Shown: in pieces, positions 1,258 to 54,340 of the stretch
Numbering within the stretch: position 1 is the first letter of the stretch
How the letters are laid out: every line of letters begins with the position of its first letter
IMG/VR virus record: IMGVR_UViG_3300020711_000011
Span: 1-58,446 of that record
Origin: a virus
Strand: one strand, 5' to 3'
DNA length: 58,446 nucleotides
The notes under the pieces: generated by a model
Databases searched by the model: none
The model's input: only the letters and a program-made list of their open reading frames with translations
Told to the model about the DNA's origin: nothing
Program-made: the position numbers and the translations under genes

Positions 1258-1261
1258 ACAT

Positions 1262-1269
1262 ATTATATA
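1262..1269 (-). promoter_or_regulatory. TATATAAT late-type promoter box
   Basis: TATATAAT on the minus strand, preceded by GA, ends 4 bases upstream of the ATG at 1257. It is one of a recurrent set of T4-late-like boxes in this window. Confidence 0.5.
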
Positions 1270-1376
1270 TCTCACTCTCTTATTGTTTCCCAAAATACTT
1301 TAAAAAAACTTTAAGAATCTTGAAACAAAAGGGCCTACACAGAATATAAGTTATGGTTCCATTGGTTGAAAGGGTT

Positions 1377-2042
1377 CTAGGAGGGGCTTAAAGCCAGAGA
1401 CTGGATATACAGGGACAGGAAATAGGCGTCCACCAAATCATCAAAGGGCTTCGGGACCTTAGCACCGACTTCAAGCGCTACCGCGAACTTCCAAACACCG
1501 CTTCCCGACAGAGAATCGTCTTCTAATGTATTTTGAACAAAAACATCCCAGAGCTCTCTTTTCTTTAATCTACCCCCACCAGCATGCTTCTTGATCGAAG
1601 TCGGAGCTACCGTAAGAATATTATTATCAGGATGCTGAAACCGAATTAATAAAGAATATTTAAAGATGGCTGCAGCCGCCGCTAGATCGATTAAATTATT
1701 GGTTCCTCCACCCCCACTACCATAAGAAACACCTTCGAATGCAAAGATCGTATGTGAATCAGTTGCAACTCCAGCCGAGATAATCATTTCGATCATGTCT
1801 TCAGCCATAGTAATGTACCGATTCAATTTGGTTAACTCTCTTTCGGAGAACTCTTTACTGGTTTCAAATCCGGGTTGAATCTTAAAGTCTATATCATTTT
1901 GCAGAGTTAACTCTTCCTGCATCCTAATTTCTGACTTGGTACCACCAGCTTTCATATAAGACAAGAATTTGAGCTCATTTTCATGAGTTCGAACTACGAT
2001 ACCAGGAGAGTTAAGTGAAAAGTCGATTGCGACTATGTTCAT
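1377..2042 (-). CDS. RuvC-like Holliday junction resolvase / RNase H-fold nuclease
   Basis: A 221-residue protein with the RuvC/RNase H-like acidic pattern: first strand MNIVAIDFSLNSPG with Asp7, a second acidic residue in FAFEGVSYG (Glu103), and a C-terminal PFDDLVDAYFLSLY with Asp201, Asp202 and Asp205. The segment APTSIKKHAGGGRLKK (from residue 146) matches the basic P-x-x-hKK-x-x-x-G pattern of RuvC-type resolvases. Such enzymes cut four-way junctions or branched DNA before packaging. The start MNIVAID at 2040-2042 is chosen because the first strand begins there and the upstream gene stops at 2044; a longer frame from 2084 would add 14 residues inside the neighbour. It could also be another RuvC-superfamily nuclease. 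Confidence 0.75.
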   Translation of the reverse strand: MNIVAIDFSLNSPGIVVRTHENELKFLSYMKAGGTKSEIRMQEELTLQNDIDFKIQPGFETSKEFSERELTKLNRYITMAEDMIEMIISAGVATDSHTIFAFEGVSYGSGGGGTNNLIDLAAAAAIFKYSLLIRFQHPDNNILTVAPTSIKKHAGGGRLKKRELWDVFVQNTLEDDSLSGSGVWKFAVALEVGAKVPKPFDDLVDAYFLSLYIQSLALSPS

Positions 2043-2043
2043 A

Positions 2044-2424
2044 TTAGATTCTATTGCCAAGAGCTGCACCGACTGCGGCACCAACTAATCTTGATGTTAA
2101 TAAATCATACAATAATCCAGATTGTACGCCTAATGCTCTAGCAACTATTTTACCAACTGTAGATCCAAGAGCAAATCCAGTTAGTCCGCCGATGATTGAA
2201 CCTAAGATACCTTCATTTGTAAGTTCTTCATTGAATCTTTCGATATCAATAACTCCATTCGCATCGGTATAGTTGCTCATAAATTCATCAATCGCAAGAT
2301 CAATTTTGCTTTCCAATTGCGGAGTTAGTTCCGAAGTCAATGACTCACGTAACATTCCCCATTCTTTATCGGTAACATTTTGCTCGTTTAGATAATCTTC
2401 GAACGTTTTAAAATCTTGTTTCAT
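2044..2424 (-). CDS. Hypothetical protein with FEDYLNE N-terminus and glycine-rich C-terminal membrane segment
   Basis: A 126-residue protein of unknown function. The N-terminus MKQDFKTFEDYLNEQ carries the F-E-x-Y-h-x-E pattern shared by several proteins here and resembling the T4 capsid-targeting sequence. The C-terminal third (about residues 70-126) is rich in Gly and Ala with GxxxG spacing (ILGSIIGGLTGFALGSTVG), like a glycine-zipper hairpin able to enter membranes. A minor head or ejected membrane-active protein is a plausible inference. Its stop lies just upstream of the resolvase start. A TATATAGA box sits 2 bases upstream of the ATG. Confidence 0.7.
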   Translation of the reverse strand: MKQDFKTFEDYLNEQNVTDKEWGMLRESLTSELTPQLESKIDLAIDEFMSNYTDANGVIDIERFNEELTNEGILGSIIGGLTGFALGSTVGKIVARALGVQSGLLYDLLTSRLVGAAVGAALGNRI

Positions 2425-2426
2425 AT

Positions 2427-2434
2427 TCTATATA
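2427..2434 (-). promoter_or_regulatory. TATATAGA late-type promoter box
   Basis: TATATAGA on the minus strand ends 2 bases before the ATG at 2424. If it acts like a T4 late promoter, transcription would start at or near the start codon. Confidence 0.45.
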
Positions 2435-2986
2435 TTAGTCTATTTCTAGGATAACACTGTATCTATTGTATTGGAATTGGCATGTGAACGTATTAAATTC
2501 TGCAGTATTGCTGCTCATGTTAAGATCTAGTTCTGAAATTTCTTTTAGTAGAGGTCTTTCAAAAAGAACTGAAGCCAATGCGATACCTTCAGCATCTAGC
2601 AATTGTAATTTTAAATCTTCAATGTATGGCTCATTTTCACCCTGAGAATAGTAATACAACATAGTGTCTCTCATGATCCAATAATTGATAAATCCATCAA
2701 GCAATTGCATTGTTACTGTAAATTCTCTTTGTATCAAATTTTGTATTGGTTGAGATCCTCTAAAGTATCTTATGGTACCATCAAAATTTTGTTGGGTGGT
2801 CGGCTCATACGTTAAACCTGGAAGATTAATTCCTTGCACTGCATAATTTACAAAATCTATCGGCTCCGTAATAATATTACCAGGCATCCTGTTCAAATAC
2901 TTTGAGTATTGATCAGATACTTCCTTAGGTACAAAGTTCCTTGGGAACTGGAAGTTGAATAAATTATTTCTACTATTTAATATCAT
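2435..2986 (-). CDS. Tail tube-like / baseplate tube protein
   Basis: A 183-residue protein with features of the contractile-tail tube family (T4 gp19 and related gp48/gp54 domains). Seen: an early segment with a loop at VQGINLPGLTYEP (around residue 50), the type of loop found in tube proteins, then FTVTMQLLDGFINYWIMRDTM (around 88-108), a strand plus helix, and a terminal beta hairpin FTCQFQYNRYSVILEI. Size and layout fit a tube or tube-initiator subunit. It overlaps by one base the downstream end of the 687-residue structural gene, so the two are probably cotranslated. Which T4 protein it replaces cannot be decided from sequence alone. Confidence 0.55.
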   Translation of the reverse strand: MILNSRNNLFNFQFPRNFVPKEVSDQYSKYLNRMPGNIITEPIDFVNYAVQGINLPGLTYEPTTQQNFDGTIRYFRGSQPIQNLIQREFTVTMQLLDGFINYWIMRDTMLYYYSQGENEPYIEDLKLQLLDAEGIALASVLFERPLLKEISELDLNMSSNTAEFNTFTCQFQYNRYSVILEID

Positions 2987-5049: not shown

Positions 5050-5063
5050 TCTTTTTTATTATT

Positions 5064-10204: not shown

Positions 10205-13200
10205 TTAAGAAATTATATTGACTAGGAGCTCAAATTGATAATTATAACCTGGCCTCTTATTATATATTAGTCTAAATCCAAGTCGATCCGTAGGAAATGT
10301 CTGAGTCTGATAATTGGTTTGCATTGTATATACTGAGGTATCAATCAATGATGGATTATCAACACTTAAAAATTCTGTTGAAATATCTTTACCCTCTCTG
10401 GCATATACAACAATGCTGCCTAAATTAAATCTTGGTACAATATTATTATCAGTATAAACTATAAGATCATCCAGGGTTGTCGTTACATCACCGTATGAAT
10501 GATTAGCACTAACATAGTCATCGAATTTATATTTAATACCATCTGCTAATAATTTAGCAAACATAGATTTTTTAATGTAAACGTCGGCATATACTTTGTC
10601 CGTATCTTCGAACCAAACTATCGAACTGGTTTCTGAATCATTTGTTCTAATCGTATTCATTTGATCCAATGAACTAACGTTCATCGAAGTAAAATTAGTT
10701 ATTTGATATTGACTTTCAACCTTCATTATCGTCGATGCCAAGAACGCTGTCTTTTCAATAGGACTTAGGGTTCCATATGCCGTCGAAGAAATATTATTCG
10801 GAGAAGCTTTTGTAAAATATGTTGGAGAATACTTAGATTCTAAAACATTCATCGTTTTCTTATCAATCGCGATCTCACCAATTTTTGGATATAGAGGTAA
10901 TTTATCAGATGATGTTGACAATTTCAATGTAGAATCAGGTGCCTCTGGATTTACTTTATGGAAATAATAGTTATATAATAGACCAAATCCATTTTCATTT
11001 GTAGAAATATAGGTATCAAATGCGATTCCTAATCTATTAAATTTATCGTAGATTAATTTCTTTCTATAATCTACCGATCCGCTAGTATCATAAGCTTTGT
11101 ATTCTGTAAAAATATCTGTGAATGCAACAACATCTTTTACCAATGGGTTATATAAACCATTCATTCTTCGCATCGCCGTAAAATATGGATCACTTCTTTC
11201 AGTAATAATCTTACCGACATCCTGTGATGTAATTTTGTATGAATTAGGTTTATCTGAATCCACAGAAGGTTCAATGTAAGAAGCCTTTGCAAATGCAGTA
11301 CCATTATCGATTTCTAATACAAAATTATTTACTGATTCTGTTCCATCAGCGCTAATTGTTGTATAATTAATATTTGTTGAAAATTGATTAAATAAATTTG
11401 CAAAGCTCGATGCCTGTAAAGATTCTAATATAGATTTAAATGCATTATAACCTCCACCGATGTAGGTGTATGGTATTACGCTCTGTTCATTAATAGAAAT
11501 ACCTGCAACACCAGTCCACTCTGTACCTAATGATCCATTTGCCCATACTCTAGGATATCCATCTACAATAATTGATGAATCATTAGAAACACTTAGAACT
11601 TTTAATGCATATTGATCTGAACCATTTAATGGCCAGTTAAAAACCAAATATGAATATCCTCCACTTTCGGTAAGAGTTAATTGACTTTCAAATTTAGTTT
11701 GATTTCCCAAATTATCTGGAATTCCATTTACGGTTACTGGACCATTTGTCCATGCTGCATGTTTTAAATCTAATGTGCCACTCATTGCAGAATTATTGTA
11801 AGTTCCATTTAATTTAGAGTGTACCAATTCATACAGAACCTTTCTAGTCAATTCGTTTACATCATTTGGATTTAATTGTAAGTTAATATAGATACAAATA
11901 AAATCAAATGCATCATTTTTAATAACATCAATAGAATATTCGTTTGATGTCGCATCTGTTAAATTAATTACTGAACCAAATTTATAATCATTCACTAATG
12001 TATTACTAATAAATTCAGTAGGATTAACCTTATTGAATTCCTTTCTTGCCTTGTAAGTATATCTTAAACCTCTAAATACTGTCGATGCAAATTTATATTG
12101 AGATCCTTTATCGAAGTTAGAGTACAACTTTTTAGATCTATCTTTTACAAAAGAAATTTGATCTTTTAAAAATAAATCATTTATTGAAAAACCTGGATTT
12201 GATCCAGAAAAGCTTAATATTGATGCTCCATCTACTGTTGAAATATTTCCAGCACTTGGAAGCGTTATAATTGCACCATCTAATCTAACTACCGTAGTCG
12301 AAGACGTTAAAATAGTTGAAGAAACGATATCACTAAAATAAATTAAGGTAACTGATCCAGTTGTTATTTTTGTAACTGAAACTGTATCTCTAAATGCTCC
12401 ATCCCAAATAAAATATTTGCTAAAGTAATCATTTGTATAACTTTTTAAATTTGCAACATTTAATTCTGGATTATTTGAATTCAATAGAATAGAATCATAT
12501 CCAATATAACTATCCAACTCATTAATATTTGAATCTGTATCTTTAAAAATAGTAGGGATTCCATAGATATGAAAGTGTTCCATGCTATAGTCTAATGGAT
12601 TTCTAGATTTTCCGCTCTGAATATCAGGAGATATATTGTCAGTTCCAAATGCCTCATTAACATTTAAAAGATATGGTTTCATCCTTGCATTAAATGCATC
12701 CTTAAGAGCAAACTTATTTATTGTAGGAACCATCCTACTTAAAATTGCAGTTTCTTTTAATTCATTTTCATAAAGTCTATCATATTCAGAATCTGCAGTT
12801 ACATCTTTAATAATTAAAGTAGCATCCTGGGATAGATCAGTTATTGTTGATCTTCTATTAACTATTTCCGGTTGCAAAACTGAATACAGTGTTGGAAAAT
12901 ATGAAGATGCTTCCTCTGTAAAATTAGAGCTACATGCGCCCGCATAATTATTATAATAAGAAGAACTTAATAAAAGGTCCTCAAACGATAATTCACCTAA
13001 ATTAGAATTAGAAGTGTCATAAAAATCAAAGTCAAAGTCTTTAATTGCATATGCACTAAATTTACCGTATGTCGTAAAAGATTCAGCGTATACGTTTAAT
13101 ACTTTAGATTTCGGTACATCTATTACATTTTCTAAAATGATTCTGCTCGTAGCAGTTAAAAATGGATCAGCAATAATTTGAGTAATTTTAGAGAATGTAT

Positions 13201-14938
13201 TTGAAGTAGAACTCATTAAGAATTCACCAACAGCAACAGTTCCTTTGTTTTGATTCTTTACCAAAACTGCTCTATTTTGTATTGCTCCTCCGGTTGGAGT
13301 CCATATAGTCCATTGAGTAAAATCAGTATGCGATCCTACTGGAAGTATTGAATTTGTTAAACCAATATTATTCTGTAGACCTACATTTATTTGAATGAAA
13401 TCAGAAATATTACCATTTAAAATACCTAATGCGGTCAATTTTCTATTATTTCCAACTCCATAATCTTGTAAAATTATTCTATCTCCGATCTGTTGAACCG
13501 TATAAGGAAGCTCTGATAGATTAATTGATCCAGCTAGGGCACTTGCAATATCACTCGGTGTACCGTGGATTGAGTAGGTATTCTCAGTAAATTTGCCAAT
13601 TGGTAAATTAGCTATTGCAGTAAACTCAAATCCGTGCAACTTATAATCAAAGCCTTTCAATTCTGATTTGGGTGCAATAAATATTTTATCACCATCGTGT
13701 GGAGTGTCGATTATTTGAAGATCGATAAAATCATTTAGGTTAACTCCAAACTCTTCAATTTGAATCGAAGATTGTTTAACCATATCCGTAAATTCATTAA
13801 GACTTGCTCCATTTAATGAAACCGGTAGATATTGAGTATTATTAAATCCAACACCATTTCTGATATGAAAGAAATTACCAACTCCAGATTTTACCCAGTT
13901 TAGGGTTGGAATTGATAAATCACTTTGATTCAAGAACATATCTTGATGAGTCAAACCATTTGATAAAGGATATAAAGTAGAAACCGAATCAGCCTCAATC
14001 TTTAAGATTTCAGTTGAATCATTTTTAACCAGATCGTATGTTGTAAATTGTCCTTCTTGGATTGCATCAACATATAAACCAAAATATCTATAAATCTTAT
14101 AGGTTTCTGCAGTTGGATCATTGAATAAAAATTCAAGATTTAATATGTTTGCAACTGCGATATCATTTCTTTGAAAACCAGAAGTTAAAAGATTATTATT
14201 TAAGATTTCTATCTTATCAACGATAAGATCTTTATTCGTGTATTCATTTCTATTAACAAAACCACCCTTTGCCGTATCGATACCGCTAAAAATAGTAGGT
14301 TGCGATGGATCAAAGTTCTGTGTTATTGCAGCATCTGGAAAATTAGAATCATTTATATGAGTACTAATATATTTACCAATTCCAGTTTTTGTAGTTAAAT
14401 CAAATGAAGTAACGATCGTAGCCTTGCTTAACAATTCCATCACTCTTGTGTTTTGTGATGATATTGTCGTATCCATTTGTTTAGAGTAGTCAACATCTTC
14501 AACTCTATAAATTACAAAGTAAGAAGGTGTATTCTTTTCCAACCAAATAGGAGCAAAGAATCTATATTGTTCTAAATAAAATTTTGAAGTATTAAAGAAG
14601 GCACCGTACTGATATTGAGATTCATATTGCTTTGCATAATCTCCATAAACACTCAGATCAGAATCTTCTCTTAAAACATCGTATTTAATAGAATTCGGAG
14701 CAGTAGAATAGAATGCAGAAAGATCTTGCGAGTATGATCCTCCAGAATTGATTGGAAACTTTTTAAATGCAGAATTTGAGAGAGTACTATTCGCGTCAAT
14801 TGAATCCATATAAATGGATCCAGTAGAGTCAACTACTAATTTTACGTTCGTAGTTAATACGGGATTGGTTCTTAATAAACCAAATGATAGAGCGTCTAGA
14901 TTATTCTCAGACGCATCAAAGTTTGTTGTTATACTCAT
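10205..14938 (-). CDS. Very large virion structural protein (1577 residues)
   Basis: The largest protein in the window, not assigned to a family. It has no signal peptide or membrane segment; composition (Ser, Thr, Asn, Asp, aromatic) and many short strands fit a baseplate or long-fibre protein. The N-terminus MSITTNFDASENNLDALSFG lacks the INxNF anchor of the collagen fibres. The region around residues 95-130 is aromatic-rich (QYESQYQYGAFFNTSKFYLE). The C-terminus is beta-rich. An AGAAGGAAA stretch just upstream of the ATG is one of the few Shine-Dalgarno-like sequences in the window, and a TATATAAT box lies 24 bases upstream. Location between fibre genes and the Hint-domain protein supports a tail-tip or baseplate-periphery role. 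Confidence 0.6.
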   Translation of the reverse strand: MSITTNFDASENNLDALSFGLLRTNPVLTTNVKLVVDSTGSIYMDSIDANSTLSNSAFKKFPINSGGSYSQDLSAFYSTAPNSIKYDVLREDSDLSVYGDYAKQYESQYQYGAFFNTSKFYLEQYRFFAPIWLEKNTPSYFVIYRVEDVDYSKQMDTTISSQNTRVMELLSKATIVTSFDLTTKTGIGKYISTHINDSNFPDAAITQNFDPSQPTIFSGIDTAKGGFVNRNEYTNKDLIVDKIEILNNNLLTSGFQRNDIAVANILNLEFLFNDPTAETYKIYRYFGLYVDAIQEGQFTTYDLVKNDSTEILKIEADSVSTLYPLSNGLTHQDMFLNQSDLSIPTLNWVKSGVGNFFHIRNGVGFNNTQYLPVSLNGASLNEFTDMVKQSSIQIEEFGVNLNDFIDLQIIDTPHDGDKIFIAPKSELKGFDYKLHGFEFTAIANLPIGKFTENTYSIHGTPSDIASALAGSINLSELPYTVQQIGDRIILQDYGVGNNRKLTALGILNGNISDFIQINVGLQNNIGLTNSILPVGSHTDFTQWTIWTPTGGAIQNRAVLVKNQNKGTVAVGEFLMSSTSNTFSKITQIIADPFLTATSRIILENVIDVPKSKVLNVYAESFTTYGKFSAYAIKDFDFDFYDTSNSNLGELSFEDLLLSSSYYNNYAGACSSNFTEEASSYFPTLYSVLQPEIVNRRSTITDLSQDATLIIKDVTADSEYDRLYENELKETAILSRMVPTINKFALKDAFNARMKPYLLNVNEAFGTDNISPDIQSGKSRNPLDYSMEHFHIYGIPTIFKDTDSNINELDSYIGYDSILLNSNNPELNVANLKSYTNDYFSKYFIWDGAFRDTVSVTKITTGSVTLIYFSDIVSSTILTSSTTVVRLDGAIITLPSAGNISTVDGASILSFSGSNPGFSINDLFLKDQISFVKDRSKKLYSNFDKGSQYKFASTVFRGLRYTYKARKEFNKVNPTEFISNTLVNDYKFGSVINLTDATSNEYSIDVIKNDAFDFICIYINLQLNPNDVNELTRKVLYELVHSKLNGTYNNSAMSGTLDLKHAAWTNGPVTVNGIPDNLGNQTKFESQLTLTESGGYSYLVFNWPLNGSDQYALKVLSVSNDSSIIVDGYPRVWANGSLGTEWTGVAGISINEQSVIPYTYIGGGYNAFKSILESLQASSFANLFNQFSTNINYTTISADGTESVNNFVLEIDNGTAFAKASYIEPSVDSDKPNSYKITSQDVGKIITERSDPYFTAMRRMNGLYNPLVKDVVAFTDIFTEYKAYDTSGSVDYRKKLIYDKFNRLGIAFDTYISTNENGFGLLYNYYFHKVNPEAPDSTLKLSTSSDKLPLYPKIGEIAIDKKTMNVLESKYSPTYFTKASPNNISSTAYGTLSPIEKTAFLASTIMKVESQYQITNFTSMNVSSLDQMNTIRTNDSETSSIVWFEDTDKVYADVYIKKSMFAKLLADGIKYKFDDYVSANHSYGDVTTTLDDLIVYTDNNIVPRFNLGSIVVYAREGKDISTEFLSVDNPSLIDTSVYTMQTNYQTQTFPTDRLGFRLIYNKRPGYNYQFELLVNIIS

Positions 14939-14962: not shown

Positions 14963-14970
14963 ATTATATA
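14963..14970 (-). promoter_or_regulatory. TATATAAT late-type promoter box
   Basis: TATATAAT preceded by GA on the minus strand, 24 bases upstream of the ATG of the 1577-residue gene. The predicted leader also contains AGAAGGAAAAC, a possible Shine-Dalgarno, unlike most genes here. Confidence 0.5.
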
Positions 14971-14995
14971 TCAAGAAATGAAGGAGACGTCTGGG

Positions 14996-26904: not shown

Positions 26905-26912
26905 TTTATATA
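26905..26912 (-). promoter_or_regulatory. TATATAAA late-type promoter box
   Basis: TATATAAA on the minus strand ends 2 bases upstream of the gp25-like ATG. It predicts a start of transcription at about the start codon. Confidence 0.5.
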
Positions 26913-26917
26913 TTTTC

Positions 26918-29069: not shown

Positions 29070-29115
29070 ATTAGTGATTGTATTATTCCGTCACTATATA
29101 TATCACCTACAATTA

Positions 29116-31604: not shown

Positions 31605-31635
31605 ATATTATTATATTAACAAGTTATATATTGAA

Positions 31636-33153: not shown

Positions 33154-33161
33154 TATTTATA
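33154..33161 (-). promoter_or_regulatory. TATAAATA box identical to the T4 late promoter
   Basis: TATAAATA on the minus strand, ending 6 bases upstream of the hub gene ATG. It is identical to the T4 late promoter -10 element and sits so close that the mRNA start would fall at about the start codon. Confidence 0.6.
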
Positions 33162-34370: not shown

Positions 34371-34378
34371 GTTATATA
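34371..34378 (-). promoter_or_regulatory. TATATAAC late-type promoter box
   Basis: TATATAAC on the minus strand, 2 bases upstream of the ATG at 34368. It is part of the recurrent leaderless-type set. Confidence 0.5.
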
Positions 34379-34385
34379 TTTAATT

Positions 34386-35908: not shown

Positions 35909-36418
35909 TTATTTATTTGAAGGACCATTAACCGTTATTACTCCATTTGCGATTGTGATATTTGTCTTTCCAGTCTTTAATACATTTGGAGGCAAGATTT
36001 CAGTCGCTCCATTTTTATATGCAGCGGCTTTTCTCTTTAAGTAATCGATGCGCTTCTGATCTTGAATTGATAATCTTTTCGTATCGATGAACTTTTGTCT
36101 TATTACATTTTGTTCAGTCGATTTTTGTGTTGGCTTATTAGTCCAAGGTAAAAGAGTCGCATCTCTCTGAGGAATTAATAGTGTATCACCTTCAGCAATA
36201 GAAAATGGATTTGAAATATTGTTATATTTTAGAATGTAATCTGCATAAGATGCAACACCATAAACCTGAAGCGCTATTAAATCTGGTCGACCTGCAAAAT
36301 GCGAGTCAACTAAGAATTTAGACATTACTTGTGTATTGCTACTAAATAGCACTGTCGGTTCAGTCATTATGACTACTCCATTTTCAATCCTCTTATTTAC
36401 TAAAGTTGTTAAGTTCAT
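35909..36418 (-). CDS. LysM-containing baseplate protein, T4 gp53-like
   Basis: A 169-residue protein similar in size to T4 gp53 (196). Residues about 55-85 resemble a LysM repeat (NPFSIAEGDTLLIPQ), and the surrounding FAGRPDLIALQVYGVASYADYILKYN segment resembles the gp53 and contractile-system wedge LysM proteins that lock the inner wedge. Residues about 95-135 are basic and helical (IRQKFIDTKRLSIQDQKRIDYL). The ATG overlaps the stop of the upstream tube-like gene by one base, indicating coupling. Confidence 0.7.
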   Translation of the reverse strand: MNLTTLVNKRIENGVVIMTEPTVLFSSNTQVMSKFLVDSHFAGRPDLIALQVYGVASYADYILKYNNISNPFSIAEGDTLLIPQRDATLLPWTNKPTQKSTEQNVIRQKFIDTKRLSIQDQKRIDYLKRKAAAYKNGATEILPPNVLKTGKTNITIANGVITVNGPSNK

Positions 36419-38220: not shown

Positions 38221-38274
38221 TCTTTTGTGATATTTGTTTAAATGGGTTTAATCCCATCTAAGTATATATCACTT

Positions 38275-40819: not shown

Positions 40820-41332
40820 TTAATCATTGTTCCATACAATTACTTGATTCACTGGAATCCCTGCGCGCTCCAATAGTGCAATTCCAGTCATGTCACGATA
40901 TGCTTCACAATAAAATACTTCCTTTACTCCTGACTGGATGATTAGCTTTGCACAATCAAAACAAGGGGATGTCGTTGTGAATAGAACCGAGTCTTTAGAG
41001 GACATCGTGGTCTTCGCCAATTTCATTAGTGCATTAGATTCTGCGTGTAATACTTCATGTTTAGAAACCAATTTAAAACGGCCTGTTTCATTCTCATACG
41101 GCCAGATCTCTTCAACTTCTTCTGGATCCAACCAGCCTCCAGCATCGCCATCCATATATACTATGGTTTCGCATGTGTTATCAAATTTATGCGGTGTGCC
41201 ATTATAGCCAAAGCTGACGATCTGTTCGTCCTTTACAATAACACATCCTACCTTACGCCGTTCAGCATAACTGAGCTTAGAGATTTGATATGCTATTTGC
41301 ATATAGATCTTTTCAATTGGGATACGTGGCAT
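40820..41332 (-). CDS. Deoxycytidylate (dCMP) deaminase
   Basis: A 170-residue zinc deaminase that turns dCMP into dUMP for dTTP synthesis. The signature is complete: H96-A-E98 (EVLHAESNAL) with catalytic Glu98, and SPCFDCAKLI with Cys124 and Cys127 as the other zinc ligands. The N-terminal RRKVGCVIV and GYNGTPHKFDN match T4 gene cd and ComEB types. The insertion with DGDAGGWLDPEEVEEIWPYE is longer than in minimal enzymes. A TATAAATA box 20 bases upstream suggests it can be transcribed separately. Family assignment is secure. Confidence 0.93.
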   Translation of the reverse strand: MPRIPIEKIYMQIAYQISKLSYAERRKVGCVIVKDEQIVSFGYNGTPHKFDNTCETIVYMDGDAGGWLDPEEVEEIWPYENETGRFKLVSKHEVLHAESNALMKLAKTTMSSKDSVLFTTTSPCFDCAKLIIQSGVKEVFYCEAYRDMTGIALLERAGIPVNQVIVWNND

Positions 41333-41352: not shown

Positions 41353-41360
41353 TATTTATA
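41353..41360 (-). promoter_or_regulatory. TATAAATA late-type promoter box
   Basis: TATAAATA on the minus strand, 20 bases upstream of the dCMP deaminase ATG. It matches the T4 late consensus and predicts a leader of about 14 bases. Confidence 0.5.
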
Positions 41361-41620: not shown

Positions 41621-42313
41621 TTATGCTTTAGCAGCTGGATCCTCGTCTACTTCTGGAGTTTGAGATTGTGGTGCCAAATTAGCATCCTTAGCCTCATCAA
41701 CTTTTTTGCAGAAGGCATCTTTCATAGAATTACATGCTGCTTCATAAGCTTCTGGCGCGTAATCTTCTTTTAAAGATTTAAGGGTGTTTGCTGAGTAGTT
41801 ACCGATTAAAGAAGCGCATTCAGCCATATAAGATTCTACCGTGTGCTCATCATGATCGTCTTCTTCCCATACTTTAGCCTCGTTTTTAACCTGTTCGTAA
41901 CATTCTTTCAAAAGTTCAGATACAGTTCTTTTAGGCTCGTCCTTTGGTTCCTCTACTTCAGTTTTTTTTTCAGCGTCTTCGTCTTCATTTACCTCTTTAG
42001 CAACCACATCGCCTTTGATGTCGTTCTTAAGGTCTTTATTTAATTCAGCTGAATCGTCATGTGCAGATTGATCAACAATTTTACCGTCGAATTTGATCTT
42101 ACCAGAAACGTCTTTAGTTTTACCGTCTAATTTTTCTGCAGGGATGCCGCTTTCGTCTTTAGCCTCGTTCTTTTGTTGAACTGTTTCAGCTTCAGCGTCA
42201 GCCTCTTTTTCTGATTTAACATCAGGAGTACCCATATCCATAATGTCTTTTTCTATTTCTTCAGTTCTGTCCATTTCTGAAACAAACTGATCAAATGATT
42301 TTAAACTTGCCAT
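41621..42313 (-). CDS. Acidic internal or core-like protein with FDQFVSE N-terminus
   Basis: A 230-residue protein dominated by Glu, Asp, Lys and Ala. The N-terminus MASLKSFDQFVSEMDRTEE carries the F-D-x-F-V-x-E motif resembling the T4 capsid-targeting sequence (MKTYQEFIAEA), whose cleavage by the prohead protease follows a Glu. The middle (about residues 20-140) is disordered and highly charged; the last 90 residues are more ordered and helical (ECYEQVKNEAKVWEEDDHDE, ANTLKSLKEDYAPEAYEAAC). Highly acidic prohead core or internal proteins are typical of T4-like heads. It is a stand-alone unit: TATATAAA box about 42 bases upstream and a strong terminator downstream. Confidence 0.65.
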   Translation of the reverse strand: MASLKSFDQFVSEMDRTEEIEKDIMDMGTPDVKSEKEADAEAETVQQKNEAKDESGIPAEKLDGKTKDVSGKIKFDGKIVDQSAHDDSAELNKDLKNDIKGDVVAKEVNEDEDAEKKTEVEEPKDEPKRTVSELLKECYEQVKNEAKVWEEDDHDEHTVESYMAECASLIGNYSANTLKSLKEDYAPEAYEAACNSMKDAFCKKVDEAKDANLAPQSQTPEVDEDPAAKA

Positions 42314-42355: not shown

Positions 42356-42363
42356 TTTATATA
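42356..42363 (-). promoter_or_regulatory. TATATAAA late-type promoter box
   Basis: TATATAAA preceded by GA on the minus strand, 42 bases upstream of the acidic protein ATG. Here a normal leader is predicted, in contrast to the leaderless group. Confidence 0.5.
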
Positions 42364-42379
42364 TCTATGTTCTCGACAA

Positions 42380-43108
42380 TTATCTAAGTTGCCCGTTTCG
42401 GTTAATCAAGTACCTAGCAGCGGATGCCAATAGTTTTTGTTGTGAAAGTGTCTTTTCAATATGAGGACTAATTGCAATGATCTCGCCTAGTCCAAATGGA
42501 GCCCAAAGTCCAGCAATCGAACCCTTTACAAAATCTGGATGCTGCTTGATATGAGGAACCTCCTCTGCAAATTTTAATAACACTTTAAATTCTCCATCCT
42601 CTTCGTATTGCATGATCGGACCACCATGATAGTATAGATTCACAATAGGATCAGAAGCCTCAAAAACTTGCTTGCCGAATGCAGTAATTTCAAAATTTAG
42701 ATATACAACATCATGTGTCAGATATTCTTCTTGGTAATCCAATCTCTTTAATGGAATTAAATTAAGGGACCAATCATGCCCACCTGCGATCAAATGATAA
42801 CCTGCACAGACTGCCAAAAGTTTACCACCGTCAGAAATCCAATTCTTTAGGTCTTGTTTTCCATCTTCTGAGATTCCCAAGCTTTCTTCATATGCTTTAC
42901 CGCCCGGTATGATTAATAGATCTAAGTCTTTAAAATTATCTAATTTAAAGTTATCAGAGTCTAATTTAAATGGAGTAACGCTAAAAAACTTATCTAGAAA
43001 ATCATCCCAAACTTGGATTGTAGATTTTTTAACACCCTTGTCATGATAGATTCCAATCTTTAATTTTTTATCGGACTGAAATTCTTCAAATAGTTTAATA
43101 CGTTTCAT
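42380..43108 (-). CDS. Class I glutamine amidotransferase-like protein (BPL_N domain) with FEEF N-terminus
   Basis: A 242-residue protein of the DJ-1/GATase superfamily, closest in pattern to the BPL_N domain. Seen: LKIGIYHDKGVKKSTI (strand 1), DLDLLIIPGGKAYEESLG, the nucleophile elbow LLAVCAGYHLIAGG with Cys101, NLYYHGGPIM (His161), and IAISPHIEKTL with His216 and Glu218, giving a probable Cys-His-Glu triad. In other systems such domains supply ammonia or act as amidases beside peptide ligases and amidoligases. The first 13 residues MKRIKLFEEFQSD precede the fold and match a capsid-targeting-like motif, hinting at packaging in the head. The start overlaps the upstream gene by 14 bases. Confidence 0.75.
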   Translation of the reverse strand: MKRIKLFEEFQSDKKLKIGIYHDKGVKKSTIQVWDDFLDKFFSVTPFKLDSDNFKLDNFKDLDLLIIPGGKAYEESLGISEDGKQDLKNWISDGGKLLAVCAGYHLIAGGHDWSLNLIPLKRLDYQEEYLTHDVVYLNFEITAFGKQVFEASDPIVNLYYHGGPIMQYEEDGEFKVLLKFAEEVPHIKQHPDFVKGSIAGLWAPFGLGEIIAISPHIEKTLSQQKLLASAARYLINRNGQLR

Positions 43109-43781
43109 CTACATTATTATAATATGTTTGAACAAATGATTCAAATGTTGGCATCCAACTTTCATTAGATGATTTCATCTTAACTGTCGTTGCCTTCTTA
43201 TCTAAATTTAAAATCTGTAATTTTAATTTGTTCTTTTCAATTTCAATCTTGCTTACGGCCTGAACATCTTTATTCTTTTCAGCATGCTTGTCAGATTTCA
43301 TTTTAAAATCGATACTTTTGATTTTATCTTTGATTGAATTGGTTTTATCAGCAATGTCAGTCATTTTCTTTTGAAGACGTGCAGTTTTGCTCATATGCTG
43401 TGTAGCTGCCTCGTTAGCTTGTATAGATTCATCCATTGCATCCTCTTCTTTTTTTATTTGATCCATTTTCTTCATTGCCCAATCCACGCCTTCATCTCCT
43501 CCCCAAATAAGCCATGCAACGTATCCATTGTCTTTCCATGGTTCGTCTTTGTGCTCTGGAGCTATTGATGAGTTTTTACGATGACGATTAAACTGCGCCA
43601 TTCTTGAAACAACATCTCTTGAGAGAGCTTCTCCCTTTGCAAGTTGATGGGCTCTTTGCCAACCCACTTCGGTTCCAGCAGTGACTTCGTCTCTACCGTA
43701 CTTTTCCTTCCAATCTATTGCCTTTTTCGCATTTTTAGAAGCTGCTTTAGGATAGTCAGAATATGAATCATTTTTTGACAT
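43095..43781 (-). CDS. Phage head-associated protein with DUF-type N-terminal domain
   Basis: A 228-residue protein from the ATG at 43779-43781 (MSKNDSYSDYPK); a longer frame to 43802 is rejected because a TATATAAC box lies between. Residues about 8-105 form a domain seen in phage head-maturation or portal-linked proteins: YPKAASKNAKKAIDWKEKYG, VGWQRAHQLAKGEALSRDVV, MAQFNRHRKN and DNGYVAWLIWGGDEGVDWA. The C-terminal half is a charged coiled coil (about 120-205). The last residues contain TFESFVQTYY, similar to the FExF motif found at N-termini of three other proteins. Together with its neighbours a prohead role is likely. Confidence 0.6.
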   Translation of the reverse strand: MSKNDSYSDYPKAASKNAKKAIDWKEKYGRDEVTAGTEVGWQRAHQLAKGEALSRDVVSRMAQFNRHRKNSSIAPEHKDEPWKDNGYVAWLIWGGDEGVDWAMKKMDQIKKEEDAMDESIQANEAATQHMSKTARLQKKMTDIADKTNSIKDKIKSIDFKMKSDKHAEKNKDVQAVSKIEIEKNKLKLQILNLDKKATTVKMKSSNESWMPTFESFVQTYYNNVDETY

Positions 43782-43784: not shown

Positions 43785-43792
43785 GTTATATA
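43785..43792 (-). promoter_or_regulatory. TATATAAC late-type promoter box
   Basis: TATATAAC preceded by TGA on the minus strand, ending 3 bases before the ATG at 43781, directly downstream of a terminator (43808-43825). It marks a new transcription unit and sets the start codon choice. Confidence 0.55.
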
Positions 43793-43807
43793 TCAAACAC
43801 AAAAAGA

Positions 43808-43825
43808 CCCTACCTTTCGATAGGG
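43808..43825 (-). terminator. Rho-independent terminator
   Basis: Stem of about 7 bp (CCCTATC / GGTAGGG with one G-T pair) closed by a GAAA loop, followed on the minus strand by GTC and then five T. Located downstream of the 71-residue gene. Confidence 0.8.
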
Positions 43826-43851
43826 CCTGGAATTGTGATAGGTAAATTGAT

Positions 43852-45396: not shown

Positions 45397-45681
45397 TTAG
45401 TATTTTGATGAGATTAAACTAAGAGGGGCACTGATCCTTTGGTTAGTATCGTTATCAACTAATACTGCTTTGGTACGTTTGATTTCGTTTACCGTGAAAG
45501 TTTTACCAGCCGCTTTAGGATGGTTAACCACTACCACTGAACCATAACTGATAGTTCTTTTAACCGAACCAGCTTCAGTTCTACGACGCAATTTAATAAC
45601 TTCGATAACATCAACATTAAGTTGAGAGAGTTCAGCGCTAGAAAGATTAGATAGAGCTGATTTGATTTGAGAATAATTCAT
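45397..45681 (-). CDS. Small hypothetical protein under the ACCGTGTCA promoter
   Basis: A 94-residue protein with a helical N-terminal half (SQIKSALSNLSSAELSQLN) and a basic SH3/KOW-like C-terminal beta region (YGSVVVVNHPKAAGKTFTV, NQRISAPLSLISSKY). It might bind RNA or protein. An 18-base leader separates the ATG from the conserved promoter; the leader ATTAAAACAAACAAT is shared with the next gene upstream. Confidence 0.55.
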   Translation of the reverse strand: MNYSQIKSALSNLSSAELSQLNVDVIEVIKLRRRTEAGSVKRTISYGSVVVVNHPKAAGKTFTVNEIKRTKAVLVDNDTNQRISAPLSLISSKY

Positions 45682-45735: not shown

Positions 45736-46041
45736 TTATTTTTTAATTAAATCAGTACCAGTAAAAATATGACCTATTACGTACAAACCATCACTTCTTT
45801 TAACCAAATATCTTTTACATCTACGGTTTCTTTTAGGAACTATTAAGTTTTCTAAATGATGATTGAGCGAACTGCTACGTCCATAATTCAGTTGACCTCT
45901 TAATTCTACTTGATAGAATTCATCCATTGTTTTATATCGAACTGGACCATTTAACTGAACAAAATCTAAAATAGATTGAGTGATATAACCGTGTTGTCCT
46001 TCTTTAAGACGACTTTTGAAATTTTTAGTTTGAATATTCAT
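45736..46041 (-). CDS. Small hypothetical protein, possible DNA-binding
   Basis: A 101-residue basic protein. It has a wHTH-like pattern (YITQSILDFVQLNGPVRYK, YKTMDEFYQVELRGQLNYG) followed by a basic beta hairpin (KRNRRCKRYLVKRSDGLYV). This is consistent with a small winged-helix regulator, but no family is recognised. It is driven by promoter B and followed immediately by promoter A, so it might regulate this early region; that is inference. Confidence 0.5.
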   Translation of the reverse strand: MNIQTKNFKSRLKEGQHGYITQSILDFVQLNGPVRYKTMDEFYQVELRGQLNYGRSSSLNHHLENLIVPKRNRRCKRYLVKRSDGLYVIGHIFTGTDLIKK

Positions 46042-47025: not shown

Positions 47026-47418
47026 TTAATATTCTTTTTCAAATTCGTAATAGTAATCTGCAGCTGCACAGTCTCTAAAAGCATCTAAGATTAAAAAGTC
47101 CATGTTTGTTCCATTTATGTTTTCAAAGAATCGATTAAATTCATCTTGTAGATTTTCAGCAGGAACTTTAGGTTGTAGATAATTTAATACTGCTGAAACT
47201 GCTCTACCTGCAACTGTACTATCATCTGTAAATCTATAGCCTCTATAATAATCTTCTCCAGCAGGAAATGTATCGAATATTTCTTGATCTGAATATCTCA
47301 TTCGATAAAGACTAACTGCAGTCTGCACTGATGCCGTTTGGCTATTGGTTTGGATGTTAGGAATGTAGGTAGATCCGTTGCATTCGATTTCATTGATGTT
47401 AATTTCTAAGTTGTTCAT
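47026..47418 (-). CDS. Small acidic hypothetical protein
   Basis: A 130-residue acidic protein of unknown family. The C-terminal half is helical and ends in an acidic aromatic stretch (CAAADYYYEFEKEY). It is the first gene of a unit containing UVDE; the start is preceded by a TGTTTATATTTGCAT promoter at 47442-47460, whose core equals that of promoters A-C. Confidence 0.5.
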   Translation of the reverse strand: MNNLEININEIECNGSTYIPNIQTNSQTASVQTAVSLYRMRYSDQEIFDTFPAGEDYYRGYRFTDDSTVAGRAVSAVLNYLQPKVPAENLQDEFNRFFENINGTNMDFLILDAFRDCAAADYYYEFEKEY

Positions 47419-49615: not shown

Positions 49616-49804
49616 TTAGTCTATGTTTTGTTGTTTTTGTTGTTTGTAGATTGCTTTAAGGTTCTGAGTTCTATTGATAACACTTGGTTTTTCGAACTCT
49701 TTTCTTTTTTGTAGCTCTTGGGTTTGCTTAGTTTTAAGAACCTTTCTTTTGTATTCCTTTAGAGCTTTTTCAATATTACCGTCTTTGATATTAACTATAA
49801 TCAT
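49616..49804 (-). CDS. rpsU: Ribosomal protein bS21, phage-encoded
   Basis: A 62-residue bS21 homologue: MIIVNIKDGNIEKALKEYKR then KEFEKPSVINRTQNLKAIY match Bacteroidota bS21 (IEKALKxxKRK, EFxKPSVxxRxxxxKAxY). The conserved C-terminal aromatic residue is kept (Tyr53). In Bacteroidota, bS21 with bS18 and bS6 sequesters the anti-Shine-Dalgarno tail of 16S rRNA, so a phage copy could alter which mRNAs the 30S selects. The start overlaps the stop of the upstream gene (ATGA). Unlike host rpsU of many Flavobacteriales, no extended SD precedes it. The family is secure; incorporation into ribosomes is inferred. Confidence 0.93.
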   Translation of the reverse strand: MIIVNIKDGNIEKALKEYKRKVLKTKQTQELQKRKEFEKPSVINRTQNLKAIYKQQKQQNID

Positions 49805-50061: not shown

Positions 50062-50851
50062 CTTCCTTTATTTTATGTATCAGCTCAATTTGAGCATCAT
50101 TTAGGCCGTGGAATGTTGTGTTTAGTTTTACAAGAATCGAACCCGATTCGTGCGTATTGTATATTGGTAGTCCTTTTCCTGGAATTCTAAGTACTTTTCC
50201 AGGTCCTGATTTCGGAGGTATCTTAAATGATATTTTTCCGGTTGGAGCCGTAATTTCTGCGGTAGTACCCAATATCATATCATAGAACCTGACATTGGTT
50301 TCGAACCATATATCATTCCCTTGTATGATAAATTGTTCACTTGGTATAATTGTAACCGTGACAATTAGATCACCCCTGGGAGCGTTACTGTTCATTGGGT
50401 GATATTGACCTCTTTGCGGGTACTTAAATATCATTCCGTTCTTCACTCCTTTTGGAAAATTGATGTTTATCTTATCGTATCCCATGTCAAACACTCGTTG
50501 CGCGCCATAGATCACGTCGTAGATGGACAATTGAGCCGAAACCTTGACGTCCGGACCCTTGTTTCCTCGGTTTCCAAATATGTTATCGAAGTCTCCGGCA
50601 AAATTACTGCCGAAATTAAAGTTCTTTAGCAGATCTTCAAGGGACGGACCGCTTTGTGTACGATCGTAAGTTGCCTTTTTATTTGGATCACTTAAGACGC
50701 TATAAGCTTCTTGGATCTGTTGAAATCTGACTTTGGTATTTGCATCTGGATTTTTATCAGGATGGAATTCCTTTGCCAGATTTCGGTATGCACGCTTGAT
50801 TTCATCCTGCGTTGCAGCATCACTAACTCCTAATGTGTTGTAGTGACTCAT
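50042..50851 (-). CDS. DnaJ/CbpA-type J-domain co-chaperone
   Basis: A 269-residue J-protein. Residues 3-65 are a J domain with the His30-Pro-Asp32 motif (LAKEFHPDKNPDANTK), needed to stimulate Hsp70 (host DnaK). A Gly/Phe-rich linker (NFGSNFAGDFDNIFGNRG) follows, then the two C-terminal substrate-binding barrels (VSAQLSIYDVIYGAQRVFDM and RGDLIVTVTIIPSEQF). There is no CxxCxGxG zinc finger, so it is CbpA-like. A phage J-protein may recruit DnaK for virion assembly or replication. The Hsp20 gene lies about 0.7 kb upstream. Confidence 0.92.
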   Translation of the reverse strand: MSHYNTLGVSDAATQDEIKRAYRNLAKEFHPDKNPDANTKVRFQQIQEAYSVLSDPNKKATYDRTQSGPSLEDLLKNFNFGSNFAGDFDNIFGNRGNKGPDVKVSAQLSIYDVIYGAQRVFDMGYDKININFPKGVKNGMIFKYPQRGQYHPMNSNAPRGDLIVTVTIIPSEQFIIQGNDIWFETNVRFYDMILGTTAEITAPTGKISFKIPPKSGPGKVLRIPGKGLPIYNTHESGSILVKLNTTFHGLNDAQIELIHKIKEVESGTV

Positions 50852-51087
50852 TATTTCTCGTTTTTACGTCTGTCAATAGCCTCTTGTATCTTTTCTCTGG
50901 TACCGGTAACGATATCGATTTTTTGCTGACGTTCCATTAAATCGGCAACTCGTTTAAGTTGTTTGGCTAGTTCTTGAGCGGTTGATTCGGTAATAGGAGA
51001 GACTGTGTTCTTGCTCTTTGGAGATGCCAGGGCTGTGGTCCATCCCTTTGGAACTTTAGCGGGCAATTTTACTTTTTTATCTGACAT
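50851..51087 (-). CDS. Small basic protein upstream of DnaJ
   Basis: A 78-residue Lys-rich protein (VKLPAKVPKGWTTALASPKS) with a helical C-terminal half (AQELAKQLKRVADLMERQQK). Unknown family. Its stop overlaps the DnaJ start by one base, and a TATATAAA box lies 23 bases upstream of its ATG, making it first in the DnaJ-bS21-PhoH unit. The proline/lysine N-terminus suggests a flexible tail. Confidence 0.5.
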   Translation of the reverse strand: MSDKKVKLPAKVPKGWTTALASPKSKNTVSPITESTAQELAKQLKRVADLMERQQKIDIVTGTREKIQEAIDRRKNEK

Positions 51088-51110: not shown

Positions 51111-51118
51111 TTTATATA
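51111..51118 (-). promoter_or_regulatory. TATATAAA late-type promoter box
   Basis: TATATAAA on the minus strand, 23 bases upstream of the ATG at 51087. It follows the terminator-like hairpin at 51142-51163, so the DnaJ-bS21-PhoH unit has its own promoter. Confidence 0.5.
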
Positions 51119-51141
51119 TTCGGCTTTCTTTGTTTACAAGA

Positions 51142-51163: not shown

Positions 51164-51186
51164 ATCATATCACTACCATAAAATCT

Positions 51187-51519
51187 CTAAATTTGTTCAA
51201 GGTAATCTCTAAGAATCGAACACTTTTCGTACTCTTCGGTCTTTACGAAATAGTTCATCATAAATTCCAGAGTTGCCTTTAATTTTACCATTGCTTCAGG
51301 ATCCAAATTAACCATTTGTCTTGTAGCATTGATGTCTAAACCGTGCATTTGTATGGTTTCGTAATTAAACCTAACATATCCATCGATCGCCTTTTCAAAG
51401 ATTTCATTTGCTTTCATTTTGTCTTCTGAAGAGAAGTCATCTGGAAATTCATTGTCATTGAAATTTTCTTCAAAGCCATCTTCGTCATCAAAAAAGTCGT
51501 CGTTAAAATCGTCAATCAT
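51187..51519 (-). CDS. EYEKC-motif protein, copy 3
   Basis: A 110-residue acidic protein. Residues 1-35 are strongly acidic (FNDDFFDDEDGFEENFNDNE), and the C-terminal 25 residues (MMNYFVKTEEYEKCSILRD) match EYEKC copies 1 and 2; EKCxxLRD is closest to a UVR motif. It is a single-gene unit: promoter C (51538-51572) is 18 bases upstream, and a hairpin lies downstream. Early expression of a short acidic protein suggests a host-directed role; no function known. Confidence 0.7.
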   Translation of the reverse strand: MIDDFNDDFFDDEDGFEENFNDNEFPDDFSSEDKMKANEIFEKAIDGYVRFNYETIQMHGLDINATRQMVNLDPEAMVKLKATLEFMMNYFVKTEEYEKCSILRDYLEQI

Positions 51520-51537
51520 AAGTTATTTATTTAATTT

Positions 51538-51572: not shown

Positions 51573-51578
51573 TTTATT

Positions 51579-51953: not shown

Positions 51954-52037
51954 ATTTTTTAAGTTTTAATTTTCTGGATTATTCCATTACTAATATACCT
52001 ATAAAAACTGTGCCATTCAATATAAATTAATATAAAA

Positions 52038-52052
52038 ATGACATATTGTCAT
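52038..52052. promoter_or_regulatory. Inverted repeat ATGACA-TAT-TGTCAT
   Basis: Perfect 6-bp inverted repeat with 3-base spacer, placed between the exonuclease stop (52057) and the Hsp20 start (51953), in a 103-base gap that also holds TATA-like sequences. It could be an operator for Hsp20; no T-run supports termination. Confidence 0.4.
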
Positions 52053-52056
52053 ACTT

Positions 52057-52797: not shown

Positions 52798-52798
52798 A

Positions 52799-53047: not shown

Positions 53048-53063
53048 AAGAATTAATTTATAA

Positions 53064-53080
53064 GACAAATATAAAACAAA
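53064..53080 (-). promoter_or_regulatory. Bacteroidota-type promoter -7 element
   Basis: GTTTTATATTTGTC on the minus strand, 16 bases upstream of the ATG at 53047, with a TATATTTG box and poly-T tracts at the expected -33 distance. No ACCGTGTCA motif is present. Confidence 0.55.
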
Positions 53081-53114
53081 TTTTTCAAACTAAAAAATAT
53101 TTTTCAATATTTTT

Positions 53115-53354
53115 TTAAAAACTTGTTCCTGTTTGATCATCCCAAGTATGGGATTGTCTTATTTTGCAAAATTGCTCGTAATTAATAGTTACTGCAACAT
53201 ATCCTCCTGTGACTGAGTAGGGGGCTTCACTCTCGGAGAACCAATACGGAGGGGTCTCTTCGATTCTATCATTTAGAAAATCGAAAAGTTCATCTATTTG
53301 CATGTGATGTACGTGGACTGTTATAACCATGCAATTGTTATTTGGATATCCCAT
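53115..53354 (-). CDS. Small hypothetical protein
   Basis: A 79-residue protein starting MGYPNNNCMVITVHVHHM, with a strand-helix-strand pattern (ITVHVHHMQIDELFDFLNDR, YVAVTINYEQFCKIRQ). No known family. It overlaps the ATP-grasp gene stop by one base and may be its small partner; this is only positional. Confidence 0.5.
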   Translation of the reverse strand: MGYPNNNCMVITVHVHHMQIDELFDFLNDRIEETPPYWFSESEAPYSVTGGYVAVTINYEQFCKIRQSHTWDDQTGTSF

Positions 53355-54307
53355 TATTTTTGTACTTTCCAGTTTGGATTTTGTTTCATGTTCTGTTTAA
53401 TATCTGCATCTCTAAATTCTTTCAATAACTTTTCAGTATCTCCAGAAATTTGAGTTTGGTAATAATCTTGGTAGATTCTTTGGTACACCATCGACATTAC
53501 TCCAAATAAGGCTCCAGGTTCTGAATTCATTTCGAACACGTAGATCTTATCCTTCTTATCCACTGCGATATCGATCGCATAAAAGTCTAAGTCATAATGT
53601 TGCTCGATAAAATAATCGCATGCTTTTAAGAATGCATCAGAAGGTGAACCCTTCATTAAAGTATATCCAAAGTTTGTTTCATCCTCAGGATCCTTTTCAC
53701 CGATATCTTCGGTCTCTTCATCCATCGGTATTCTAGTACACCATTGTAATATCTCTCCTCTCCATAGAAAGAATCTATATTCCTGTTTGATATCGATCTT
53801 TTCACCAAAAGAAGTAAATTGACGTAGATCTGCTTTATCCATGTCTTCTTGCGTATCAAACACTTGAATTCCTAATCCGCTATGATTGTTATCCGGTTTT
53901 GCAACTATCGGAAACTTTAATTCACTAATGTCCTTTGGATCAAATACAGTTGGAATGATGTATGGACTTTTTGCGTGTAATTTATAAAATTCTGATTTGG
54001 ATGCTACTCTCTTTTTTGCATCAATCCAATTATAAACTTGTTTCTCTCTAATAGCTCCAGATTTTAAGAACTTTTGTAGGGTCTCAGTATCGTAATTTAA
54101 AACTGGTAAATCTTTCTTGATCGATGAATCCTTGTCATCTCTAACGGCAATTACCCAATAATCTCGGGTTGAATAGTCTGGGCCAGTGATAAATGAATTC
54201 TTAAGTCTTTTTCTTCTGGTAATCATTACCTTCTGAAATTCTTCACGAACATATGCTTCCTGCATAAACTGTTCGAACATCATTATTTTAGTTAGAGATT
54301 TCTTCAT
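53354..54307 (-). CDS. ATP-grasp ligase with FEQFMQE N-terminus
   Basis: A 317-residue ATP-grasp protein. Seen: FPIVAKPDNNHSGLGIQVFD (Lys137 and the Gly-rich loop at 143-147), IDIKQEYRFFLWRGEILQW (Glu176), DFYAIDIAVDKKDKIYVF (Asp246) and FEMNSEPGAL with Glu259 and Asn261 binding Mg-ATP. The enzyme probably joins a carboxylate to an amine, as in RimK or glutathione synthetase type ligases; its substrate is unknown. The N-terminus MKKSLTKIMMFEQFMQEAY contains the F-E-x-F-h-x-E motif shared with three other proteins and T4-like head targeting. A TATATACA box sits 2 bases upstream of the ATG. Confidence 0.85.
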   Translation of the reverse strand: MKKSLTKIMMFEQFMQEAYVREEFQKVMITRRKRLKNSFITGPDYSTRDYWVIAVRDDKDSSIKKDLPVLNYDTETLQKFLKSGAIREKQVYNWIDAKKRVASKSEFYKLHAKSPYIIPTVFDPKDISELKFPIVAKPDNNHSGLGIQVFDTQEDMDKADLRQFTSFGEKIDIKQEYRFFLWRGEILQWCTRIPMDEETEDIGEKDPEDETNFGYTLMKGSPSDAFLKACDYFIEQHYDLDFYAIDIAVDKKDKIYVFEMNSEPGALFGVMSMVYQRIYQDYYQTQISGDTEKLLKEFRDADIKQNMKQNPNWKVQK

Positions 54308-54309
54308 GT

Positions 54310-54317
54310 TGTATATA
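54310..54317 (-). promoter_or_regulatory. TATATACA late-type promoter box
   Basis: TATATACA on the minus strand, 2 bases upstream of the ATP-grasp ATG at 54307. Divergent from the plus-strand box at 54330-54337 in the same 33-base gap. Confidence 0.45.
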
Positions 54318-54329
54318 TTCTCATCTCTA

Positions 54330-54337
54330 TATATAAA
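54330..54337 (+). promoter_or_regulatory. TATATAAA late-type promoter box (plus strand)
   Basis: TATATAAA on the plus strand, ending 3 bases before the ATG at 54341, the only plus-strand gene. It mirrors the minus-strand boxes and shows the element is used in both directions. Confidence 0.5.
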
Positions 54338-54340
54338 TCG

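Follow-up and report, generated by a model that had tools for sequence, protein, structure and literature searches.

The window and its genes

The window, i.e. the whole stretch of DNA that was analysed, is a linear IMG/VR virus record of 58,446 bp from a T4-like myovirus, with genes for a gp32-like single-strand binding protein (SSB), baseplate and tail proteins, PhoH and a dCMP deaminase. An AT-rich 8-mer, RATATATA, stands upstream of genes in the window and in related genomes, either immediately before the start codon or some 15-32 nt from it. The favoured explanation, which we hold to be probable, is that these boxes are gp55-type late promoters and that roughly a quarter of them give leaderless mRNAs.

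A bS21 gene is present at 49616-49804 (PF01165, E 7e-13). Its nearest bacterial matches are 50-54% identical, and all four that were found are from Bacteroidota (two Mucilaginibacter, one Sphingobacteriaceae, one Cytophagales). Because these matches are confined to Bacteroidota, and because four window genes have host-like promoters (TATATTTAC/TATATTTGC), the host of this lake virus, a member of the T4 phage group, very probably belongs to this phylum. The bS21 gene lies near PhoH- and DnaJ-like genes and has no late box directly upstream. The nearest named record to the window is LR756500 (52% identity in SSB), and closer relatives in IMG/VR number in the hundreds. The comparison set used below comprised 12 records, i.e. 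the window and 11 related IMG/VR contigs, one of which (G009) was used minus its last 6.6 kb.

The box and its spacing to the start codon

Alignment of the sites gives the element as the 8-mer RATATATA (in a looser form, R-A-T-A-N-A-T-A), with G or A at position 1, A at position 2 and T disfavoured right after the box. The extended 8-mer is identical in sites close to and further from the start codon, including the G two bases before TATATA, which is found in 43% of proximal and 53% of distal sites vs 6-9% near the starts of other genes. No -35 element accompanies it: in the distal class, positions lying more than 7 bp upstream of the box each carry approximately 0.1 bit of information at most. 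In this regard the box differs from the early promoter class (TATATTTAC), which has a strong upstream element. Neither does it resemble the Bacteroidota sigma-A promoter (TAHHTTTG), since it ends in TATATA and lacks the TTTG that forms the 3' half of the -7 element. Motif discovery in zero-or-one-occurrence-per-sequence mode, run per genome, blended early and late motifs, and the classes were therefore separated by hand.

The striking property of the box is its position. With the gap defined as the number of nucleotides between box end and ATG, TATATA stands at gap 4 before 70 genes in the 12 records (4-9 in each) and at gap 5 before 17, while gap 3 is empty; the ATG is thus at a fixed distance from a -10-type box, as in leaderless promoters. 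The same spacing is seen without gene calling, RATATATA-N4-ATG occurring 71 times compared with three for N3 and 25 for N5. When counts are collapsed to 741 gene families, with one member each, and compared with dinucleotide shuffles, gap 4 is represented by 21.4 families vs 1.5 expected, and no single gap from 0 to 10 exceeded six in 60 shuffles. In the window alone, TATATAA occurs five times at gaps 2-5 vs approximately 0.1 in shuffled upstream regions (58 genes). A second, broad class, that of the distal boxes, is found 15-32 nt upstream of the ATG, its peak covering approximately 17-30 nt, with a trough at gaps 6-16 between the classes. Boxes at gap 4-5 account for some 22 families and distal boxes for some 57, so that proximal boxes make up roughly a quarter of the putative late promoters.

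The intergenic DNA is 65-70% A+T, and it might be argued that such a background is bound to place TATA before ATGs, the more so as the window totals do not depart from dinucleotide expectation either for the T4 consensus box, TATAAATA (12 vs 10.6 expected), or for RATATATA (18 vs 16.0 expected). The positional peak, the family-collapsed null and the strand polarity refute this argument: RATATATA is on the minus strand, which carries nearly all the genes, in 17 of 18 cases in the window, and GATATATA in tandem intergenic DNA is in the sense orientation 186 times and antisense once. Moreover, T4, Tenacibaculum phage PTm1, the huge phage LR756500 and Lak-A1 are equally or more AT-rich and have no gap-4 peak. 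A background origin can thus be set aside with near certainty.

The boxes listed in the original prediction, which proposed T4-late-like boxes a few bases before start codons, all exist and, once their register is corrected, are far above chance by position and strand; the comparison of motif-to-ATG distances with shuffled sequence, which it had named as a test, gave the gap-4 peak and not an AT-rich background. The 8-mer itself had been misplaced, as RATATATA starts two bases upstream of the one proposed. Its distal sites are likewise present (14965, 41353, 42358 and 51113 in the corrected register; Table 1). At 31608 a TATAATA is there, although the true box of that gene is the AATATATA at 31625-31632. 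The polarity of the box, its lack of a -35 element and its replacement by TAAATA and similar strings at the same gap in orthologs are traits expected of a T4-type late box. The T4 consensus TATAAATA is not what is enriched, however; RATATATA predominates, TAAATA being a minor form, and the element is classed as a variant T4-type late promoter rather than a canonical one.

Predicted transcription starts and conservation among orthologs

The distal boxes appear to reveal where transcription begins. Of 212 distal sites, 168 (79%) have A as the fifth base after the box, compared with 56% for offsets nearby (p 1e-12), and G hardly ever occurs as the fourth. In gap-4 genes, the A of the ATG falls on this same fifth base. 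Transcription start sites usually have a pyrimidine at -1 and a purine at +1; a pyrimidine precedes the ATG in 61 of 69 proximal genes vs 1029 of 2053 others (p 5e-11). A 4-nt spacer also fits the host, as it is the shorter of the two distances (4-5 nt) reported to separate the housekeeping -7 element of Flavobacterium johnsoniae from the transcription start (PMC6847099).

It may be asked whether the box is a promoter whose transcripts start elsewhere, either a few bases upstream, leaving leaders of 1-5 nt, or inside the open reading frame (ORF), the true start codon then being downstream. The T4 late box spans -13 to -6; if gap-4 boxes had that geometry, +1 would fall near codon 2 (PMC2988020). 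Two boxes of the window, those at 1264 and 33154, have a gap of 6. Such a shift is hard to reconcile with the preferred +1 at the fifth base after distal boxes and with a peak at gap 4 so sharp that gap 3 is empty. A downstream start codon is also not indicated, since in-frame Met residues in codons 2-14 are no commoner in proximal genes (7/70) than in others (330/2124), and the N-termini of orthologs align at the proposed ATG. We regard a shifted start as improbable.

Another possibility is that TATATA-N4-ATG acts in the mRNA, as a Kozak-like or A/U-rich translation signal of Bacteroidota, rather than in the DNA as a promoter. The element is located at the start codon, and initiation in Bacteroidota is tuned by the bases upstream of the ATG, with A favoured at -3, -6, -12 and -13 (PMC6847099). 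The box does not match that pattern, however, and the leader determinant A(-3) is depleted in proximal genes (27/70 vs 1266/2124, p 7e-4); the spacing is, in addition, sharper than an element of the Shine-Dalgarno (SD) type requires. The same 8-mer recurs 15-32 nt upstream, and it changes places with the proximal form between orthologs with aligned N-termini. Thus, in the family of gene 33166-34368 the box is proximal in 10 of 11 members and distal in one; the family of gene 27759-29069 has 10 distal members and a single proximal one among its 11, and N-termini align at the proposed ATG in both families. In other orthologs TATATA is replaced at the same gap by TAAATA, or by TAGATA or TACATA. 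Finally, the box is placed between terminators and start codons: of the 49 proximal genes having 25 nt or more of intergenic DNA, 14 have an intrinsic terminator within 45 nt, vs 74 of 947 others (p 3e-5). Together these observations make a translation signal slightly less likely again than a shifted start, and favour a promoter.

The genes concerned correspond in part to those transcribed late in T4. A distal box is found upstream of the orthologs of the T4-late genes gp20 (10/10) and gp21 (9/9), and orthologs of T4-early genes (gp32, gp41, gp44, uvsX etc.) are mostly without a late box.

A gp55-like sigma factor

Each of the 14 relatives searched with the phrog_234 profile yielded a single homolog of gp55, the late sigma factor; a direct search with the T4 gp55 protein gave no match. 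The homologs are short (approximately 120-150 residues), with 23% identity to T4 gp55 in the region that aligns, and they retain the NY.NN segment and a sigma-2-like core, followed after a loose linker by a short conserved hydrophobic tail. The top PDB match of an AlphaFold model (predicted local distance difference test score, pLDDT, 70) is T4 gp55 in the open complex (7d7c_F; Foldseek probability 1.00, template modelling score 0.69), and the next matches are mainly other sigma region 2 structures.

In the gp55-like sigmas of the clade and of LR756500, the tail takes the forms GGIYxI, GGLFNI and AEIYSI, and it follows a Gly/Ser/Asp-rich linker (L296, L327, L165, L181, L212, L334, L235). It is possibly a clamp-binding tail. 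Support for clamp binding through the GGIYxI C terminus was not obtained: the matching polymerase subunit has no such tail.

Individual sites and other features of the window

The sites identified are collected in Table 1. The genes at 53354-54307 and 54341-55219 diverge from a common 33-bp intergenic region, which has opposed boxes, one per direction. Gene 1048-1257 is a conserved ORF of 69 amino acids with no family match; its place beside the gp32-like gene corresponds to that of gp59/gp33 in T4. The status of the box at 51524-51531 as a late box is doubtful, because gene 51187-51519 also has an early-type promoter.

Table 1. Boxes and terminator in the window; the gap is counted from box end to ATG, and transcript types are predictions.
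Feature	Position	Strand	Gap (nt)	Gene	Remarks
Late box GATATATA	1264-1271	-	6	1048-1257 (adjoins gp32-like SSB)	gap 4 in 3/4 orthologs
Proximal late box AATATATA	2429-2436	-	4	2044-2424	predicted leaderless; proximal box in 8/12 orthologs
Distal late box GATATATA	14965-14972	-	26	10205-14938	predicted leadered; distal in 9/12 orthologs
Proximal late box AATATATA	26907-26914	-	4	26549-26902 (baseplate wedge, gp25-like)	proximal in 8/11 orthologs; at the same gap TAGATA in two more, TACATA in one
Distal late box GATATATA	29097-29104	-	27	27759-29069	predicted leadered
Distal late box AATATATA	31625-31632	-	20	30372-31604	predicted leadered
Box TATAAATA	33154-33161	-	6	31636-33147 (baseplate hub)	poorly conserved, 2/11 orthologs
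Proximal late box AATATATA	34373-34380	-	4	33166-34368 (adjoins gp5-like hub)	
GATATATA	38263-38270	-	42	36418-38220	
Distal TATAAATA	41353-41360	-	20	40820-41332 (dCMP deaminase)	
Distal late box GATATATA	42358-42365	-	44	41621-42313	
Late box GATATATA	43787-43794	-	5	43095-43781	directly after intrinsic terminator
Terminator hairpin GGCCCTATC-GAAA-GGTAGGGTC, then T run	43805-43828 (approximate)	-		43095-43781	approximately 20 nt before ATG; fold -15.8 kcal/mol, z -4.5
Distal late box AATATATA	51113-51120	-	25	50851-51087	
Box AATAAATA	51524-51531	-	4	51187-51519	doubtful as late box
Proximal late box AATATATA	54312-54319	-	4	53354-54307 (RimK-like)	orthologs 7 proximal, 3 distal
Proximal box TATATATA	54328-54335	+	5	54341-55219	

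Promoters of the early-type class (TTTTACCGTGTCAG, then GTTTATATTTACAT) lie upstream of 45397-45681, 45736-46041, 47026-47418 and 51187-51519. In several relatives a terminator hairpin (CCTGAC...GTCAGG) has the TTTTACCG part in its loop, such that terminator and promoter overlap.

Many otherwise unrelated proteins have an N terminus resembling MKxxKLFEQFxNEA, including the products of 2044-2424, 41621-42313, 42380-43108 and 53354-54307 in the window and 5-27 proteins per relative. This start is similar to the MKTYQEFIAEA of T4 internal head proteins, a capsid-targeting sequence with precedent in T4 (PMC3012670), and it may be that these proteins form a large set that is packaged and injected.

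Interpretation

It is proposed that the box R-A-T-A-T-A-T-A, located at -12 to -5 and with no -35 element, acts as the promoter for T4-type late transcription in Bacteroidota phages, and that it is presumably read by a short phage gp55-like sigma on the host RNA polymerase. Transcription would start at an A, the fifth base after the box. For most late genes this A would lie 10-28 nt upstream of the start codon, giving a leadered mRNA; at approximately a quarter of the late promoters the start codon would itself be at +1 (box, 4 nt, ATG), giving a leaderless mRNA with AUG at its 5' end. On such a scheme, gap 3 would be empty because the AUG would be lost, and gaps 6-16 would be rare because leaders of a few nt would result. 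The sequence itself establishes the box with its fixed spacing and strand polarity, the A at +1 and pyrimidine at -1, the terminator context, the conservation in orthologs and the gp55 homolog of the relatives; the reading of the box by gp55, the exact 5' end and leaderless translation are inferred.

Several points weigh against this proposal. For the sigma factor, the Foldseek E-value is just 7e-3 and the confidence of the model moderate; no gp55 homolog is present in ten close fragments, and that of the window phage is postulated from its relatives. The partner proteins gp45 and gp33 were not detected by profile (phrog_223, PF02916, phrog_254) in the related genomes searched, where one chance-level match was obtained, although failure to detect a protein by profile says little about its absence. 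The division into proximal and distal states was made post hoc, on data already inspected, the leaderless 5' end is deduced from the +1/-1 signatures and the spacing, and the implied 4-nt spacer is one shorter than that of T4. The assignment of the box-bearing genes to late timing is supported but incomplete, because no late box is found at the orthologs of several further genes that are late in T4 (major capsid protein, terminase, gp2, gp4).

The original prediction of T4-late-type promoters with leaderless or near-leaderless transcripts thus receives indirect support, although not with the geometry it gave: its register, combined with T4 numbering, places the RNA start near +4 of the ORF, so that the transcript would lack its AUG, and leaderless transcripts are predicted only if the register is corrected to RATATATA and the spacer is 4 nt. 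Its suggestion that the arrangement is consistent with SD-free initiation is not supported, since an SD is lacking on leadered Bacteroidota mRNAs too (leaders exceed 10 nt on 87% of transcripts in F. johnsoniae; PMC6847099) and most late genes here keep leaders of 10-28 nt; the lack of an SD, being normal in Bacteroidota, therefore needs no leaderlessness. It had also linked leaderless initiation to bS21; the gene is present, and nothing ties its product to these mRNAs. A more elaborate idea, to which we give little credence, is that one sigma produces two late mRNA classes, leadered and leaderless, set by start-codon placement, and that bS21 remodels host ribosomes toward one of them, which would amount to a late switch of translation in hosts that make no use of the SD.

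If the proposal is correct, the classic T4 late system reaches into Bacteroidota in a form that combines a new box with a shortened gp55 and a geometry coupled to the start codon, and a large conserved set of leaderless messages exists in bacteria that seldom make leaderless mRNAs themselves (in B. thetaiotaomicron, leaders of less than 10 nt are found in approximately 3.7% of mRNAs; PMC7366714). Transcription starts would be predictable to the base from DNA alone in many environmental phages, which would aid gene calling, and these phages would provide a natural system for investigating how Bacteroidota ribosomes initiate on a 5'-AUG.

Comparison with known systems

The similarities to the T4 late promoters, which depend on gp55/gp33/gp45, comprise a single 8-bp AT box, the lack of a -35 element and the location of portal and protease orthologs under the box; the gp55 homolog of the relatives likewise shares N-terminal, sigma-2-like and short hydrophobic C-terminal parts with T4 gp55. 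Unlike in T4, the box is RATATATA, the predicted spacer is 4 nt, the gp55 homolog lacks segment 3 and some promoters abut the ATG. The late promoter variant of Aeromonas phage Aeh1 (a/gC at -13/-12) has a purine at the first box position, as here, but C and not A at the second; spacing to the start codon is not described for it in PMC2988020.

Because the gap-4 peak is absent from the comparison phages, i.e. cyanophage S-RIM32 as well as T4, LR756500, PTm1 and Lak-A1, the leaderless arrangement appears to be specific to the clade of the window. There is a distal TAAATA peak in T4 and Lak, and a distal TATATA peak in LR756500. The bS21 phages of freshwater Bacteroidetes (PMC9723584) are likewise large phages carrying bS21, which is there expressed with late structural genes; the words promoter and leaderless do not occur in the main text of that paper. 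A search of the literature pairing leaderless mRNA with phage late promoters found nothing on leaderless T4-like late genes. Two other phages were rejected as precedents, phiKZ because its late promoters have TATG with +1 at the G, and AR9 because its untranslated regions are at least 26 nt.

Parallels in geometry are also found in bacteria. In Deinococcus, leaderless promoters have the -10 box just before the ATG. Mycobacterial leaderless promoters have a -10-type box a short fixed distance from the ATG and an AUG at the 5' end of the RNA (PMC4633059), as is predicted here. By contrast with the leaderless promoters of Deinococcus and Actinobacteria, which use a housekeeping sigma, those of the window and its relatives would be served by a phage late sigma.

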